A stretch of 64,000 bases of DNA, from assembly GCA_015057525.1 (NCBI GenBank), contig SVEE01000003.1, positions 124,001 through 188,000 on the forward strand, given 5' to 3'. Shown here piece by piece: positions 40,205 to 46,260 of this stretch. The position numbers were made by a program, and so were the translations under genes. The notes under the pieces were generated by a model that worked only from the letters and a program-made list of their open reading frames with translations, was not told the DNA's origin and made no database searches. The DNA is from Lachnospiraceae bacterium (GTDB taxonomy: Bacteria; Bacillota; Clostridia; Lachnospirales; Lachnospiraceae). Position 1 is the first letter of the stretch. Each line of letters opens with the position of its first letter.

Positions 40205-40567
40205 TTATCCTGCATACAATGCATCATTTTTCGAAAGAAGATACACACAATATTGATTCATGCTTACTCCCTCTTTCTGCGAATGTTCTGCTAAATCTCT
40301 GTGCAAGCTGCGAGGTATTCTTAATTTGAATTGTCCTGAGTAAGCCTCTAGACTATCTGGTTCGCGAATCTCTATCCCCTCATCAATAGCAGCTTCAATC
40401 CATGCCTTTTTAGCATCTAATGCGTTTTTCACAGCACTCTCAATAGTTTCACCACATGTAATACAGCCTGGCAAATCTGGATAAGTAACTACAAAACCGC
40501 CTTCATCTTTATCCTCTACAATCTCCATGCGATACGACATTGCCATATACTCATTCAACGTCTTCAT
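40205..40567 (-). CDS. hicB: HicB-type antitoxin
   Basis: The 120-residue protein has the HicB-like partial RNase-H fold: EDKDEGGFVVTYPDLPGCITCGETIESAVKNALDAKKAW, followed by a ribbon-helix-helix-like C-terminus (FKLRIPRSLHRDLAEHSQKEGVSMNQYCVYLL). It would bind and neutralise HicA and repress the operon through its DNA-binding tail. The frame opens at a GTG five codons upstream; I place the start at ATG 40567, inside the hicA coding end, giving a 17-nt overlap. Follows hicA, the usual gene order of many hicAB loci. Confidence 0.9.
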   Translation of the reverse strand: MKTLNEYMAMSYRMEIVEDKDEGGFVVTYPDLPGCITCGETIESAVKNALDAKKAWIEAAIDEGIEIREPDSLEAYSGQFKLRIPRSLHRDLAEHSQKEGVSMNQYCVYLLSKNDALYAG

Positions 40568-40808
40568 CTTTTTTCGCCTCACTTTCTACAATCTCTCTTA
40601 CCATTTCGACATATATCCTTTTTATTGGTTCGTGTCTTGGAATTGTAATAGGATTACATCCCAATTTTCTAAATGTGCAATGACTACTTCCACTTCTTGG
40701 AGAATTCATAATATATCCACAATTCTCCAACACCTTTTTCAATTCATCAAACCGTAAATCTTTTGATAAATTGTAAATTCTTGCTATTAATTTATCCCAC
40801 TTGGACAT
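40551..40808 (-). CDS. hicA: HicA-type mRNA interferase toxin
   Basis: The 85-residue HicA protein has a double-stranded-RNA-binding-like fold. It contains RSGSSHCTFRKLGCNPITIPRHEP, with the key His in GSSH, then IKRIYVEMVREIVESEAKKDED. HicA cleaves mRNA independently of ribosomes when its antitoxin is lost. It is slightly longer than the roughly 60-residue family core because of an N-terminal addition. Start ATG 40808 has AGGAGG; a longer frame upstream runs through the promoter and is rejected. Confidence 0.88.
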   Translation of the reverse strand: MSKWDKLIARIYNLSKDLRFDELKKVLENCGYIMNSPRSGSSHCTFRKLGCNPITIPRHEPIKRIYVEMVREIVESEAKKDEDVE

Positions 40809-40827
40809 AATTATGCCTCCTATCTTT

Positions 40828-40856
40828 ATTATACGTGGTACCACATATGGTGTCAA
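40828..40856 (-). promoter_or_regulatory. Consensus promoter and palindromic operator of hicAB
   Basis: TTGACA (40851-40856), 17 bases, TATAAT (40828-40833). The spacer contains the palindrome GTGGTACCAC (40835-40844), extendable to 10-bp arms with two mismatches. HicB binding there would block RNA polymerase, giving autorepression. Confidence 0.85.
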
Positions 40857-41074
40857 CAAATTACATAAATAATGCCAATATCTAATTTATTAATAAATTG
40901 AAAGTCAGCGAAATCGCCAAGAAAAAATGATATACGAATTTAGAAAACGTTACATAATAATATTAATATAAGCAGCTTCCAAAGTAAAGAAAAAGTCTTA
41001 CTCCTGACCTCAGACAACTTTTTTCCATAAAGCCTCAATGATTTTGTTAGTACAGTTATTATTATAAACCAAAA

Positions 41075-41335
41075 TAAGCCTGCCACTTTTGGTTTGAATG
41101 ATTATATATATTTCTACAATACTTGCGAAGAGATATTACACATTTCTTATGTTCGAATCGAAATGTAGCAACTTGCTGACATGGATGTCAGCATAGGCGC
41201 ACTGCACAGGATGTGCGGTGTGCGACGTGTTGCGTCAAATACATACAACCTAAAGTTCGAACATTAGAAATTGTTATGTCTCGTAGCGTGTTGTAAAAAT
41301 ATATATAATCATCCAACCAAGGGGGCAGGCTTTAT
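41075..41335. mobile_element. 261-bp MITE-like element, copy A
   Basis: The ends read ATAAGCCTGCC and GGCAGGCTTTAT, with terminal inverted repeats of about 45 bp. The interior has further complementary arms meeting at TTCGAA and a core of two hairpins. No open frame spans it. Copies B and C lie at 42820 and 45909. Bases 40860-41074 to its left hold only a degenerate 33-nt repeat near 41006 and the shared 27-bp flank at about 41043; I see nothing else there. Confidence 0.85.
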
Positions 41336-41347
41336 TTATATCAGTAT

Positions 41348-42640
41348 TTAATTAAATGAATAATGATTTCCTGTTGAATATCTAAAATACTCTATCATTA
41401 TTACAGTATCATTTGAATCATAGAAAAATCTTATTCCATCTATATCATACATATGAGTAGGGGCTGGCGGATATCTGTCAGTCATATTCATACAACAATT
41501 TACTTCATCATAACTAACAGCTTTTTTCAAAATCTCAGCTACCTCCGGATAAGTATTTTCAACATCCTTATATTGAGAGGTAATCCTTCCATACACAGCC
41601 TTTCCATCTACCATATCATATTCATAAAGTGTACGGGCAAGGTAACTACTTCGCACGTCAGATTTTTTTGAACCAATCATAATTCCTCTGTTGGTTATAT
41701 ATAAACCTGATTTATAGTTTTCACTGTTAATTGTGTTTCCGCTTATATCAGGATATATCCACATGGTCCAATCCTCAAAAGGAGATTTTACATCCTTCAT
41801 ATAATTTATGAAGTTCCTATCCTTAACATTTTGAGTAAAATAATTATCGCCTAATATAGATAAATCATAATGGTCATTTTCTATGTTGGTTGGTAATGAT
41901 AGTGGCATTACATCACTGGATACATCAGTTTTTCTTTCTATTTTTTCAAGATGTCCGTCGGTTTCATTCATATAATAATAGAAATTATCATCCTCTATTT
42001 TTCCTTTTGCAACAACACCATTCCAGTTATAAAAAACTATCTGACCAAAGGAATTGTATCCAAATCTATTATGATATAAATGCCCATTTTCATCAGCATA
42101 TCCAAAATTACCATCTACAAATTGGAACCACCCTTCTTTTTCCATAACACCATAAGCATTAAAATATGAAGGTGTCGCATTATTACCCATGTATGCTATT
42201 TCATTTACATACATATATCCATACGTCCCAAAATAGCAATAATCATCTACTTCTTCACCTGAAATGCTCATTGTAATATGCTCTACAGAATCAAAAGATT
42301 CATGACCTTCTTCATCAAAATATATAACATGCTCACCATCAGGATGATATGTCAATCTGCTCTTCATAGGTGTTCCATCATTTTGAAGGTAATATGTATA
42401 TATCCCATCACAGAAAAAGCATTCTGTTGCCAGTTCTCCATTTGGAAGAAAATAATATGTGCCATCCCAAGTTCCACCATTTAAGTTAATGTTATAATGT
42501 GGAACTTCCCTTGCTGTTGAAACATTTTTTTCTTCCTGTGTAGTAGTGCTAACATTGGCAACAATTTCAGATGTAGCTGCTTGAGTATCGACAGGAACCA
42601 ACAGCAACATCAATACCACCAAAACACTAATTTTTTTCAT
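41348..42640 (-). CDS. Secreted protein with wall-binding-like aromatic repeats
   Basis: The protein (about 430 residues) begins with a signal peptide ending in DTQAATSE. It then has aromatic, Gly- and Asn-rich repeats of the choline/glucan-binding style (WDGTYYFLPNGELATECFF, YYLQNDGTPMKSRL, GWFQFVDGNFGYADENGHLYHNRFGYNSFGQIVFYNWNGVV). A C-terminal region of about 170 residues is not recognised. It probably sits on the wall through the repeats. The GTG two codons earlier is too close to AGGAGG, so ATG 42640 is used. It is flanked on both sides by MITE-like copies A and B. Confidence 0.72.
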   Translation of the reverse strand: MKKISVLVVLMLLLVPVDTQAATSEIVANVSTTTQEEKNVSTAREVPHYNINLNGGTWDGTYYFLPNGELATECFFCDGIYTYYLQNDGTPMKSRLTYHPDGEHVIYFDEEGHESFDSVEHITMSISGEEVDDYCYFGTYGYMYVNEIAYMGNNATPSYFNAYGVMEKEGWFQFVDGNFGYADENGHLYHNRFGYNSFGQIVFYNWNGVVAKGKIEDDNFYYYMNETDGHLEKIERKTDVSSDVMPLSLPTNIENDHYDLSILGDNYFTQNVKDRNFINYMKDVKSPFEDWTMWIYPDISGNTINSENYKSGLYITNRGIMIGSKKSDVRSSYLARTLYEYDMVDGKAVYGRITSQYKDVENTYPEVAEILKKAVSYDEVNCCMNMTDRYPPAPTHMYDIDGIRFFYDSNDTVIMIEYFRYSTGNHYSFN

Positions 42641-42819
42641 GCTCACTGCCTCCTACACTAAAATTATTGATATCCATTTATTGAAATTCCAAAAATCACA
42701 TTCCATCAATTTATAGAATATTTTAATGCCATCTACACACATAACTTTAACCCTTATATTAAATCTAGCATATAAAATATGCTTTTACAATATTTTGTTG
42801 GTACAGTTATTATTATAAA

Positions 42820-43080
42820 ATAAGCCTGCCACCTTGGTTGGATGATTATATATATTTCTACAACTCTTGCAAAGAGATATTACACATTTCTTATGTTCGA
42901 ATCCAATTAATAGCAACATGCTGACATGGATGTCAGCATAGGCGCACTGCACAGGATGTGCGGTGTGCGGCGTGTTGCGTCAAAGACATACAACCTAAAT
43001 TTCGAACATTAGAAATTGTTATGTCTCGTAGCGTGTTGTAAAAATATATATAACCATCCAACCAAAGTGGCAGGCTTTAT
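42820..43080. mobile_element. 261-bp MITE-like element, copy B
   Basis: Same orientation as copy A, with very similar sequence over its full length. Preceded, as copy A is, by about 27 bases reading TTTTGTTGGTACAGTTATTA and on. The rest of the 42641-43113 gap holds nothing I recognise. Confidence 0.85.
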
Positions 43081-43113
43081 GTCCCCCCGAAAAAGTCATT
43101 CAACAATATTAGT

Positions 43114-44229
43114 TCACACAATAATTTTCCTTCGGTTAGTTATATACATAAATAATGCAAATCCAATTATGCTGGCGATAACAGCCACATACCACATTTT
43201 TATGCTTGAAACCAAGAACAAACTAAATATTGCAATAGCAAAAAGCCCTCCAATCATGACATTTCCAAACTTGAAATAAAATCCTTGTTTTGATAAGTCC
43301 TGTTTCTTAGTAAGATGTACCCCTAAGCCTATCAATATCAAACCAATAAGCAAATATGACAGGGCATACCATATATATAAGTTTGCTTCCTTGAATCCTA
43401 TTATTCCTTCTTGCATAGAATAATATCCCATACCACCTGTGGTACTTAAAGTGTATTCTTTCCCTTCATAAACTATAGTATAAAACATACGCTTCATCTG
43501 CCACCATGCATTATTAACATAGTGATCATATTTTTCTATCATATAGATATTTCCACCCGGCAGATACATTTTAATATAGCCCATTATTGTGTTAAATATA
43601 TTGTCCTTGCTATACATAAATGTCTCATATATTAAATTCATACTTCCATAAATCATCGCCATGCTTGCAGCAGTTGCAACAACCTTTAAATCTCCTCTGA
43701 CAACCAACGATTCTATAAAATACATTATGCCGATAATCATTACTGTATAACATATGAGTGTGATTCCCACGCCTGTTAATGCCGACAGCAACCATGGTAA
43801 TTCTATACTATACTCAGCCAGAGTAACTTTCATATATAAGAAATTGACTACAACAACCAAAACAATCGATGTTGTGGCAACAGTAATATCCATGATGGCT
43901 CTATAAGCGACAATCTTATCCCTCTTTATAGGAAGTGTTTCTAAGAATTCTCTTTCTGACTTGTTTCTTTCTCCCCAAAGCATAACTCCATGCAAAAGGA
44001 TGAATCCTAATATTAGGAGCTTAGAATAGAAAGATAAAAACAAGTTTCTAATACTATAAACGCCCACCACATCCATTAATTTATAATATATATTTTGTGT
44101 TCCAATGTTAAATATATTTTCTATCCAGTCAGGATTCGTGTATTCAAAGATATTTCTAATCATAATACCTACTAATACAACAAAGAAAATCAAATAATAC
44201 TTGTAATTTACTTTCAACCATTTCTTCAT
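43114..44229 (-). CDS. ABC transporter permease of a GntR-controlled (Ytr-like) operon
   Basis: The 371-residue protein has about six to eight hydrophobic spans with charged loops and a large soluble loop near residues 230-280. The N-terminus MKKWLKVNYKYYLIFFVVLV is anchor-like. It begins directly after the ATPase stop codon (no gap) and is the last gene of the unit. The order GntR, ATPase, permease matches Bacillus-type YtrABC-like transporters, linked to antibiotic stress or acetoin use; the substrate here is unknown. Similarity of permeases in this class is low, so assignment rests mainly on context and topology. Confidence 0.8.
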   Translation of the reverse strand: MKKWLKVNYKYYLIFFVVLVGIMIRNIFEYTNPDWIENIFNIGTQNIYYKLMDVVGVYSIRNLFLSFYSKLLILGFILLHGVMLWGERNKSEREFLETLPIKRDKIVAYRAIMDITVATTSIVLVVVVNFLYMKVTLAEYSIELPWLLSALTGVGITLICYTVMIIGIMYFIESLVVRGDLKVVATAASMAMIYGSMNLIYETFMYSKDNIFNTIMGYIKMYLPGGNIYMIEKYDHYVNNAWWQMKRMFYTIVYEGKEYTLSTTGGMGYYSMQEGIIGFKEANLYIWYALSYLLIGLILIGLGVHLTKKQDLSKQGFYFKFGNVMIGGLFAIAIFSLFLVSSIKMWYVAVIASIIGFALFMYITNRRKIIV

Positions 44230-45111
44230 CTACTCTTCCCCCTTTCTCTCCTCCAGAGCAATATATAATTCCTCAAGACTCATATCCAGTTCTTCAATGT
44301 AACCTGCCCCCAGATTTTTTAACCATTTTTGCTTTTCACTGTCATATTCTTCTATTACCAAGGTATAAACATTACCTACATTACTATATTTAACAACTGT
44401 ATCTCTGGCTAATAGCTTTTCGTTAACTCCATTCTCAAATACAGCCTGTACCTTGGTTAATCGACCCTTTAACTCGTCTAAATTTGAATTATCAAATACC
44501 TTTCCCTTCTCTAAAATTGTTATAGTATCACATAATTTTTCCAAATCATTTAGATTGTGTGAGCTAATTAAAACTCCCACATTATCTTTCTCAACCGCTT
44601 CTATTATAATCTCCATAAATGCTTTTTTTACCACTGGGTCCAGACCTGATGTAGGTTCATCCAAAAGAAGATACTCTGGATTTTTAGCAAGTTCCAACAT
44701 TAAACCAAGTCTCATCTTTTGCCCCTTTGACAATGTATCTATTTTAGCATCTAAATCAAGCTTGAATCTGTTGTTATATTCATTAAATTTATCCTTACTA
44801 AATTTAGGGAAATATATTTCAAAAACATCTATCATCTTCTTTATTGTGTATCTACCTATGTAATCATTATTATCTGACACATAGCCTATTTTTTCTTTGA
44901 TTTCAGGATTTGTATATATTACTTTATCCTCACAAGTTATTTCTCCTGAATCCACTTTATATATACCTGCAACACATTTTATTAATGTTGTTTTACCTGC
45001 CCCATTATCACCCACAAGGCCTTGAATCTGTCCTGGGGCTATAACGAGACTTATATCTTCTATTGCGGTCTTGCCATAATAACTTTTAAAAATATTATTA
45101 ATTTTAATCAT
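44230..45111 (-). CDS. ABC transporter ATP-binding protein (YtrB-like)
   Basis: The 293-residue ATPase has Walker A GDNGAGKTT, Q-loop region SDNNDYIGRYT, signature LSKGQKMRLGLMLELAK, Walker B YLLLDEPTSGLDP and H-loop ISSHN. About 80 C-terminal residues follow the nucleotide-binding domain. Its start overlaps the gntR stop by 4 bases, indicating coupling. It energises the permease encoded next. The function is probably envelope-stress-related efflux or substrate-specific export, as inferred from the operon type. Confidence 0.9.
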   Translation of the reverse strand: MIKINNIFKSYYGKTAIEDISLVIAPGQIQGLVGDNGAGKTTLIKCVAGIYKVDSGEITCEDKVIYTNPEIKEKIGYVSDNNDYIGRYTIKKMIDVFEIYFPKFSKDKFNEYNNRFKLDLDAKIDTLSKGQKMRLGLMLELAKNPEYLLLDEPTSGLDPVVKKAFMEIIIEAVEKDNVGVLISSHNLNDLEKLCDTITILEKGKVFDNSNLDELKGRLTKVQAVFENGVNEKLLARDTVVKYSNVGNVYTLVIEEYDSEKQKWLKNLGAGYIEELDMSLEELYIALEERKGEE

Positions 45112-45485
45112 CTGCTTAGTCCTCCATACAGTTCTTTAATTATTTCTATAACATCCTTCTCCTCAAATCCCATCATTTTAAGTTCAAGTATACTTGGTTC
45201 CAGATTTTTCTTAACTTGATTAATTTTATTCTCATCAGGTTTTTTTATTGTTTCTCCTGCAATAAATGCACCCTTTCCCCTTATTGTCTCAATAACTCCC
45301 TGGCGTTCAAGCTCCTGATATGCTTTAGCGACTGTTCCAGGAGTTATGCTAAGCTCCAACGCCAATTTTCTTACTGAAGGTATAGGCATACCTGGCTTAA
45401 TATTCCCTTTAACAACATGAAACTTTACCTGTTCTATGATCTGCTCATAAATAGGTGTATCTCTTTTTAAATCCAGCTTAATCAC
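45108..45485 (-). CDS. GntR-family repressor (YtrA-like)
   Basis: The 125-residue protein consists of a GntR winged helix (DTPIYEQIIEQVKFHVVKGN, PSVRKLALELSITPGTVAKAYQELE) and a short C-terminal dimerisation helix, the size of the YtrA subgroup. Start GTG has AGGAGGTGATTTT. A perfect inverted repeat overlaps its promoter, so it probably represses its own operon until the inducer appears. Confidence 0.92.
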   Translation of the reverse strand: MIKLDLKRDTPIYEQIIEQVKFHVVKGNIKPGMPIPSVRKLALELSITPGTVAKAYQELERQGVIETIRGKGAFIAGETIKKPDENKINQVKKNLEPSILELKMMGFEEKDVIEIIKELYGGLSR

Positions 45486-45575
45486 AAAATCACCTCCTAT
45501 AATGTTTAAATAAGCATTTTAATTTTATGAATTACAACCCAAAATGAATTTTAACTTTTCGTTGTTACATCTCCA

Positions 45576-45629
45576 TAACTGTATCACTCGTATTGATACA
45601 GTTATAACACACTATATTTCCATTGTCAA
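45576..45629 (-). promoter_or_regulatory. Promoter and inverted-repeat operator of the GntR-ABC operon
   Basis: On the minus strand TTGACA (45624-45629), 17 bases, TATAAC (45601-45606) with TG at the extended position. TAACTGTATCA and TGATACAGTTA (45576-45604) form a perfect 11-bp inverted repeat with a 7-base spacer, overlapping the -10 box and start site, as expected for GntR repression. Confidence 0.9.
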
Positions 45630-45686
45630 CATATTTAATAAATATTCTTACAGTCCCATATTAAATAAATATTCAAACTCTAAATT

Positions 45687-45850
45687 GGGTCTATAGAAAA
45701 AAAGTTATTCCCCAGACCCAAAGTTTATTCAACATAAGGGTACAGAGCACAACTTTTTTCCTAAAGACCCAATCCAACGCAATTTTATTTACATAACACA
45801 GCTTTCTATTAAACACAGGGTCTTAGAAACAGCTTTTTTTCTATAGACCC
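45687..45850. repeat. Three 33-nt GGGTC...GACCC repeats
   Basis: Units 45687-45719, 45738-45770 and 45818-45850 are each exactly 33 nt. Oriented alike, the first and the reversed second and third agree: GGGTCT, a TAG, then an A-run and AAGTT/AAGCT, ending ACCC. The second and third units are inverted relative to the first. Spacers of 18 and 47 bases are unrelated. Each unit's ends are complementary. A diverged fourth copy lies near 41006-41036. Confidence 0.85.
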
Positions 45851-45908
45851 TCAATAATTTATACATGAATTTTATCACACATAAAGCCTGCGAGTTTCAT
45901 TGTTCAAT

Positions 45909-46171
45909 ATAAAGCCTACCACCTTGGTTGGAATGGTTATATATATTTTTACAACACGCTACGAGACATAACAATTTCTAATGTTCGAAATTTAGGTTGT
46001 ATGTCTTTGACGCAACACGCCGCACACCGCACATCCTGTGCAGTGCGCCTATGCTGACATCCGTGTCAGCATGTTGCTATTAATTGGATTCGAACATAAG
46101 AAATGTGTAATATCTCTTTGCAAGAGTTGTAAAAATATATATAATCATCCAACCAAAGTGGCAGGCTTTAT
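45909..46171. mobile_element. 263-bp MITE-like element, copy C (inverted)
   Basis: Its core is the reverse complement of the cores of copies A and B. A partial terminal repeat ATAAAGCCTGC occurs again just outside at 45881-45891. The third 33-nt repeat ends 58 bases to its left. The remaining parts of the 45486-46319 gap hold only the operator, the 33-nt repeats and the terminator. Confidence 0.85.
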
Positions 46172-46260
46172 GGGGAAAAATGCATCCCGCAGGCATTATG
46201 CGAAAAAATGAATATGCAAGGCACATCCCTGTATGATGAAAGAGTTGCCAAAAACAACAA

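Follow-up and report, generated by a model that had tools for sequence, protein, structure and literature searches.

The 64,000-nucleotide stretch of Lachnospiraceae DNA analysed here (the window) contains three copies of a palindromic element of 261-263 bp, the third inverted, as a preliminary description of the window had claimed. The elements and their parts are:

41075..41335, + strand: copy 1, whole palindromic element
41123..41289, + strand: copy 1, TwoAYGGAY RNA (RF01731), model positions 1-168, 86.6 bits (cut-off 43)
41174..41193, + strand: copy 1, hairpin 1, loop TGGA at 41182-41185
41197..41223, + strand: copy 1, hairpin 2, loop GGA at 41209-41211
42820..43080, + strand: copy 2, whole palindromic element
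42867..43034, + strand: copy 2, TwoAYGGAY RNA (RF01731), 84.8 bits
42918..42939, + strand: copy 2, hairpin 1, loop TGGA at 42927-42930
42942..42968, + strand: copy 2, hairpin 2, loop GGA at 42954-42956
45909..46171, - strand: copy 3, whole palindromic element, inverted
45956..46123, - strand: copy 3, TwoAYGGAY RNA (RF01731), 84.7 bits
46051..46072, - strand: copy 3, hairpin 1, loop CGGA at 46060-46063
46022..46048, - strand: copy 3, hairpin 2, loop GGA at 46034-46036

Copies 1 and 2 were identical in 244/263 alignment columns, copies 1 and 3 in 243/265 and copies 2 and 3 in 256/263. Terminal inverted repeats were present, but not with the length of about 45 bp first given: the arms extend over about 85 bp and are imperfect, with small interruptions, the first and last 90 nt being complementary in 71/95, 74/93 and 75/93 columns in copies 1, 2 and 3. 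The upstream end was also corrected for copies 1 and 2, which share about 30 bp more (TTTTGTTrGTACAGTTATTATTATAAA). By eye, TA was seen at both ends of the copies.

The two-stem core was found in all three copies. Hairpin 1 reads ATGCTGACA-TGGA-TGTCAGCAT, with CGGA as the loop in copy 3 and the outermost A-T pair of the stem missing in copy 1; hairpin 2 reads GCGCACTGCACA-GGA-TGTGCGGTGTGC and is fully paired only if G-U is counted. Structure was strong in both kinds of folding that had been proposed (z from -14.2 to -15.3): as RNA, copies 1-3 reached -122.8, -125.5 and -130.1 kcal/mol (z -15.3, -14.2 and -14.6; 0/200 shuffles equally good), and copy 2 folded as DNA gave z -14.5. The absence of a coding frame was borne out, no ORF that reaches 60 aa lying inside any copy; an 87-aa TTG-start frame that opens in the last part of copy 2 and extends past it looks like chance.

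All three cores matched the Rfam model RF01731 over its full length (84.7-86.6 bits, cut-off 43). The element had been presented as undescribed, a claim that a known repeat family was expected to overturn; its core is indeed the catalogued family TwoAYGGAY, whose function is unproven. TwoAYGGAY has been treated as a probable RNA (PMC2864571) and as a predicted CsrA-binding sRNA (PMC4333381); the parts of the literature on it that were consulted held neither a proven function for this candidate RNA of 2010 nor a statement on its mobility. The window copies share with the Rfam family two GGA-type apical loops and the enclosing stem. The loop of hairpin 1 (ATGGAT or ACGGAT) fits the AYGGAY motif; hairpin 2, with CAGGAT, has a GGA loop and does not match the AYGGAY letters. 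Unlike the model of 168 positions, the unit found here measures about 261 bp, has longer inverted arms, and belongs to a family that is multi-copy and inserts.

The source genome (G000) carries nine TwoAYGGAY copies, and 20/37 genomes of the genus, the source included, were positive, with 1-35 copies each; the family is multi-copy, dispersed and patchy. The flanks of dispersed copies differ. A unit with the window's own ends occurred among the 37 genomes only as the three window copies, within 5 kb, so these copies may have arisen by local duplication; no empty orthologous site was found for them. Local duplication as the sole origin of the family at large was ruled out by empty sites in relatives.

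Insertion was seen at orthologous sites of other genomes. The locus of an element pair in G013 was compared with 10 stretches from 9 other genomes (G014, also matched, was left out): a single terminator-like hairpin stood there instead in four genomes (G010, G017, G016 and G006), one element in G015 and a coreless remnant in G005, and G007, G008 and G019 gave no assignable state. Between G018 and G025, whose flank pieces are about 82-97% identical, 13 sites were assignable: three were empty, three held a short unrelated sequence, one held the element in a form with GA-cis inside hairpin 2, and six were occupied by another palindromic element and therefore do not show simple insertion. At G018 position 69363, 287 bp including the element separate the arms of a terminator-type hairpin; G025 has this hairpin intact, with a loop of 8 bp. 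With several orthologous sites of relatives found empty, occupied by something else or reduced to a remnant, the RF01731 element family inserts.

The term MITE-like consequently held for the family in its dispersed copies, inverted arms, lack of an ORF and empty or remnant sites in relatives. Neither a consistent target duplication nor a partner transposase was found: apart from the TA at the window copy ends, a possible TAAT/TATT was noted at one compared site and nothing clear elsewhere. A DNA search of the 37 genus genomes with the element matched its own genome only and yielded none larger. The idea that the terminal repeat marks the end of a larger transposon was followed in 13 compared stretches with the G013 element ends or relatives, and several contigs end there. 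Like MITEs, the element is short, non-coding and many-copied, and it is present or absent at orthologous sites of relatives. The remark that it is unlike a simple MITE was justified by its conserved structured RNA core and mostly copy-specific outer arms. Transfer by phages or plasmids was unsupported: insensitive searches gave no match among 50,697 phage and 72,556 plasmid records, nor in viral contigs for two exact element patterns.

Beyond the Rfam model, the two arms of a copy pair with each other and are mostly unlike those of other copies; over the 35 nt adjoining the model, identity between copies of one genome was just 0.63-0.65. In 12 orthologous copy pairs, single changes in arm pairs led to a mismatch in 67 cases, to G-U in 30 and to Watson-Crick pairs in 10, and double changes to Watson-Crick pairs in 11, G-U in 1 and a mismatch in 11, with 29 gaps; these counts use the pairs of the G018 fold, which biases them towards breaks, and the G-U share expected among single changes, about one-third, is our own estimate. 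Strong selection on the outer arms was unsupported by these changes. An origin of the arms wholly from host DNA fits at G018 69363 and fits in part at site 2822785, although a deletion in G025 would give the same picture there. As a general rule this origin was ruled out by site C4:196196 of G025, both long arms of which are missing from the empty site. By eye, the arms include terminator-like hairpins.

The strand read as RNA was examined in 93 copies (G018 25/25 matches, G025 30/35, G000 9/9, G010 10/10, G013 3/3, G014 3/3 and G015 13/16; G002, with 27 matches, and other positive genomes are outside this set). In the stem internal to the model, G-U pairs outnumbered A-C mismatches by 56 to 10, an asymmetry that points to a probable RNA in the Rfam orientation. 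The signal was reversed when the outer arms of G000 were taken by themselves (G-U 11 vs A-C 24). Promoters of the element's own showed no excess over shuffles (38 found vs 31.1 expected, sd 5.8).

In a sample of 299 Lachnospiraceae genomes, csrA was present in 44/45 TwoAYGGAY positives vs 110/254 negatives (p 1.7e-13), and the unrelated comparison gene cas1 showed no such excess (16/45 vs 108/254). Family and class searches used the best 9 and best 7 candidates per genome, respectively, with stricter filters, so that positives can be missed and copy numbers are at least those found; curated cut-offs were passed by 43/45 TwoAYGGAY and 152/154 csrA positives. The csrA excess agrees with the published prediction of CsrA binding by TwoAYGGAY, but is confounded with motility or flagella and with ancestry. 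Within the genus there was no separation (18/20 positives vs 15/17 negatives). In G000 csrA lies beside fliW, in what by eye resembles a flagellar gene cluster; csrA is present in G025 and absent from G028, and the one-contig genome G018 has 25 TwoAYGGAY copies and neither csrA nor fliW.

GGA loops in both hairpins were counted in 7/9 copies of G000, 12/13 of G015, 3/3 of G013, 3/3 of G014 and 6/10 of G010, vs 1/25 in G018 and 2/30 in G025, where hairpin 1 has lost its GGA in 24/25 and 28/30 copies. All 25 copies in the G018 alignment keep GGA in hairpin 2, although the count gave 20/25, the counting rule overlooking GGA loops on 3-bp stems. The paired GGA loops, seen in the majority of copies in five genomes, and the co-occurrence with csrA in the family sample recall CsrB/RsmY/RsmZ-type RNAs. 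Those, however, come from few genes, whereas TwoAYGGAY copies are short, numerous and scattered, none with more than two hairpins of this kind, and their CsrA binding is only predicted.

The window copies are probably a non-coding mobile palindromic element with TwoAYGGAY in its middle. A putative transposase would move it in trans, with a preference for gaps beside or within terminator hairpins, and arms of the host's hairpins could in this way turn into its outermost, copy-specific arms. The element would be read as RNA in the Rfam orientation, and both of its hairpins would bind CsrA through their GGA loops; many dispersed copies might titrate CsrA or place a CsrA site in the transcripts that host them. 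Against the CsrA explanation count G018, with its 25 copies, no csrA or fliW and yet an invariant hairpin 2 GGA; the loss of the hairpin 1 GGA in G018 and in csrA-bearing G025; and the lack of a csrA difference within the genus, the family excess being confounded. The reversed signal in the G000 outer arms and the lack of a consistent target duplication, a transposase or a promoter excess count against the explanation as a whole.

The copies in G018 and the lost hairpin 1 loops would equally suit a purely selfish hairpin element, whose moving enzyme recognises the two hairpins as DNA and for which CsrA is irrelevant, as would arms whose pairs are lost between orthologues at a rate that looks neutral. 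We consider this unlikely in view of the G-U asymmetry inside the model, the strong family-level csrA excess and the orientation of the elements, sense outnumbering antisense by 28 to 11 in gaps between same-direction genes of G018 and G025. That bias is also what a hairpin between cistrons or at the 3' end would give, serving mRNA processing, stability or termination. REP/BIME and Correia elements are analogues of such mRNA-end hairpins; REP/BIME are intergenic palindromes near gene ends, sometimes in inverted pairs. The TwoAYGGAY element resembles REP/BIME in all these respects and differs in its far larger size and structured core. Its downstream gene is convergent in 34/38 copies of G000, G010, G013, G014 and G015 (pair members share neighbours and are not independent), its arms include terminator-like hairpins, and another structured element takes six slots in the same relative orientation. 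A giant counterpart of REP/BIME or Correia elements is thus possible but doubtful, since it leaves the conserved GGA loops and the csrA excess unexplained and the arms decay without clear selection.

The clustering of the window copies within 5 kb, the extra upstream sequence common to copies 1 and 2, and the 12/25 G018 copies with a G025 counterpart matching on both flanks would agree with immobile CsrA-sponge RNA genes multiplied by ordinary duplication. Such genes are improbable, a reading already weakened by sites of a close relative that lack just the element and by dispersed copies with differing flanks. For the mobile element favoured above, the comparisons with relatives indicate a TwoAYGGAY core within a mobile DNA hairpin, and this hairpin may bind a global gene regulator, CsrA. 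With TwoAYGGAY carried on an inserting palindrome, its copies need to be counted and tested differently. Close relatives that differ in whether a site is empty or filled already offer natural experiments, and with the csrA excess the published CsrA hypothesis can be tested beyond Gammaproteobacteria.

More tentatively, Lachnospiraceae may harbour a guild of RNA-coding mobile hairpins, TwoAYGGAY and GA-cis among them, that enter loops of existing hairpins, nest, and swap in the same intergenic slot and orientation; through the predicted CsrA-binding loops of TwoAYGGAY, such jumps would rewire the CsrA regulon. If different structured elements do replace one another in a single slot, genomes would be changing in an unusual way.

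Three further observations were made. Inverted pairs of elements occur in places. The occupant of six of the same slots as TwoAYGGAY elements is a structured RNA without an Rfam match. GA-cis was found inside TwoAYGGAY and also inside a third, apparently unlisted family.

The preliminary description reported three copies of one element in the window, the third inverted. All three are present and near-identical (244/263, 243/265 and 256/263 matching alignment columns), and copy 3 does lie in the opposite orientation:

41075-41335, forward strand, copy 1
42820-43080, forward strand, copy 2
45909-46171, reverse strand, copy 3

Every copy folded as RNA far better than shuffled sequences, as did copy 2 folded as DNA. 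The element had been regarded as undescribed; for its core this could not be upheld, as all three cores matched TwoAYGGAY RNA (Rfam RF01731; two GGA-loop hairpins) over the full model. Rfam types the family as cis-regulatory and places it in clan CL00106, which we take to be CsrA-related. In the literature, a table of the discovery paper classes TwoAYGGAY as a probable RNA that is not cis-regulatory and gives its occurrence as human gut, gamma-Proteobacteria and Clostridiales (PMC2864571); CsrA binding has been predicted from motif matches only (PMC4333381). Two further papers list it with two additional covarying pairs (Rfam 15; PMC11701678) and, in a preprint, term it relatively unexplored (PMC11661157). 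The name was absent from the accessible portions of the Rfam 12 paper (PMC4383904), and a search covering largely non-subscription papers, in part as excerpts, returned no description of TwoAYGGAY as mobile.

The host genome (G000) contained nine TwoAYGGAY copies, only three of them with the end sequences seen in the window. Positive genomes numbered 20 of 37 in the genus (host included; 1-35 copies each), 45 of 299 in the family sample and 36 of 391 in the class sample, 27 of these last above the curated cut-off. Divergent pairs, with matches about 200-230 bp apart, were observed in G000 (1), G010 (4), G013 (1) and G015 (4), on stretches L064, L130-L133, L136-L139 and L145; by eye, the members differed in core sequence (nine aligned pairs).

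Comparison of related genomes makes it very probable that the TwoAYGGAY family is mobile. Where G013 carries an inverted pair of elements, four genomes (G010, G017, G016 and G006) held just 48-112 bp with one terminator-like hairpin between the same flanking matches, G015 had one of the two elements and G005 a core-less remnant (G007, G008 and G019 yielded no readable outcome; G014 was left out). For the close relatives G018 and G025, both flanks of 12 of the 25 G018 copies were matched in at least one G025 window (30 windows fetched, from 35 copies). Among the other copies, 13 sites were resolved: three empty, three with short unrelated sequence, six with another palindromic element and one shared.

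Element sites resolved between G018 and G025
G018 2822785, empty
G018 69363, empty
G025 C4:196196, empty
G025 C1:19281, short unrelated sequence (88-bp hairpin)
G025 C6:71111, short unrelated sequence (111 bp)
G025 C1:66427, short unrelated sequence (87 bp)
G018 85877, different palindromic element
G018 2791210, different palindromic element
G018 2747332, different palindromic element
G018 835367, different palindromic element
G018 951477, different palindromic element
G025 C11:64556, different palindromic element
G018 2022178, shared, extra insert in G025

Also sought, in addition to these 13, were G018 2101379, 2580611 and 2587546, and G025 C2:113215, C4:190636, C4:98792, C4:151793, C6:120576, C1:296574 and C1:304717. 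Absence from one relative may also be due to deletion, the G018-G025 comparison being a pairwise one. Core-less palindromes (L182, ~1840-1877; L183, ~1743-1780; L187, 1743-1881; L188, 1618-1822) resemble what a deletion would leave of the element, or may be assembly errors where a contig end is near; contig ends lay near elements in several cases. A Clostridiales-1 RNA (RF01699, 110.1 bits; L228:7376-7538) was seen about 1 kb from G025's empty counterpart of G018 2822785. If insertion is the correct reading, the novelty concerns the setting of a known RNA family, TwoAYGGAY within an inserting palindrome, of which no description was found in the literature covered.

At the G025 counterpart of G018 69363 there is a hairpin of the terminator type, its loop 8 bp long. 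Both halves of this hairpin are also present in G018, but separated by 287 bp that include the element. Past the right half the genomes soon diverge, and the flank realigns only ~1.4 kb further in G018. The extra insert at the G025 counterpart of G018 2022178 is a GA-cis RNA (RF02987) within TwoAYGGAY hairpin 2. Three of seven GA-cis matches, the three that were examined, were nested, as if GA-cis were itself a small mobile hairpin:

L244:8492-8579, GA-cis within TwoAYGGAY
L247:8475-8562, GA-cis within a second, unlisted structured element
L230:10071-10156, GA-cis within the unlisted element

Over the 60 nt outside the model, the arms of one copy were 76-80% complementary, compared with 59% when the two arms came from different copies and 55-57% after shuffling (25 G018, 30 G025 and 9 G000 copies); some copies in G010, G015 and G000 have common arms of ~80-105 nt. 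Arm changes between orthologous G018 and G025 copies (12 pairs) were mostly pair-breaking, so that arm pairing appears to date from the origin of each copy and not to have been preserved since. In 35 of 735 within-genome copy pairs of G018 and G025 the arms matched outward on both sides; in 14 of the best 25 of these, the match broke off on either side 31-39 nt outside the model. Past the match end, the two copies agreed at 6-13 of 20 positions, roughly as unrelated sequences would. Of 48 values for the pairing of a copy's own arms there (copies repeated), only 14 reached 14 or more of 20. From these alignments, the outer layer of the element might be the target hairpin.

The unlisted element, GCAGACCATTGGAGCAC...GGAAGTGAGCGAGAGCGCGTCTGC, was found in G018, G025 and another genome, with 23 distinct pattern matches in the sequences examined (L225:6156-6265, L226:16716-16813, L230:18039-18123 and others). 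Changes on both sides affected 17 of 31 predicted pairs, on 21 of the 23 matches, the structure being predicted from the same alignment. In the scanned loci, which hold 11 of the 23 matches, no Rfam family scored above cut-off on the element itself, and it apparently is not in Rfam. Six slots carried this family in one of G018 and G025 and TwoAYGGAY in the other.

With conserved positions counted repeatedly, G-U exceeded A-C by 56 to 10 in the model stem and by 130 to 88 in the outer arms (11 to 24 in G000 alone). Binding of CsrA by TwoAYGGAY is about as likely as not. In the family sample csrA was present in 44 of 45 positive and 110 of 254 negative genomes (cas1, for comparison: 16/45 and 108/254). 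Against the link, csrA did not discriminate within the genus (18/20 positives, 15/17 negatives), G018 has 25 copies without csrA or fliW, the sole csrA-less positive of the family sample, G204, is missing fliW too, and hairpin 1 has lost its GGA in 24 of 25 G018 and 28 of 30 G025 copies. The joint statement, mobility with CsrA binding, we consider somewhat favoured.

By simple ORF calls of at least 100 aa, the downstream gene was oriented towards the element (convergent) for 34 of 38 copies from G000, G010, G013, G014 and G015. For G018 and G025 together it was on the same strand in 32, converging in 22 and not called in one; within same-direction gene gaps, sense copies of the element outnumbered antisense ones 28 to 11. 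That positions differ between the two genome groups argues against one simple cis-regulatory role.

Around copy 3 (window 45880-46210), inspection by eye showed its end sequence recurring in part, ATAAAGCCTGCG outside on the left and GCAGGCATTAT on the right, as if the copy were nested in an older palindrome. A different short repeat adjoins copy 3 (45682-45850), matching G000:C6:125507-125597 (both strands) and C13:28117-28282. At 40205-40859 of the window, two small overlapping genes resemble, by eye, a HicB/HicA toxin-antitoxin pair.
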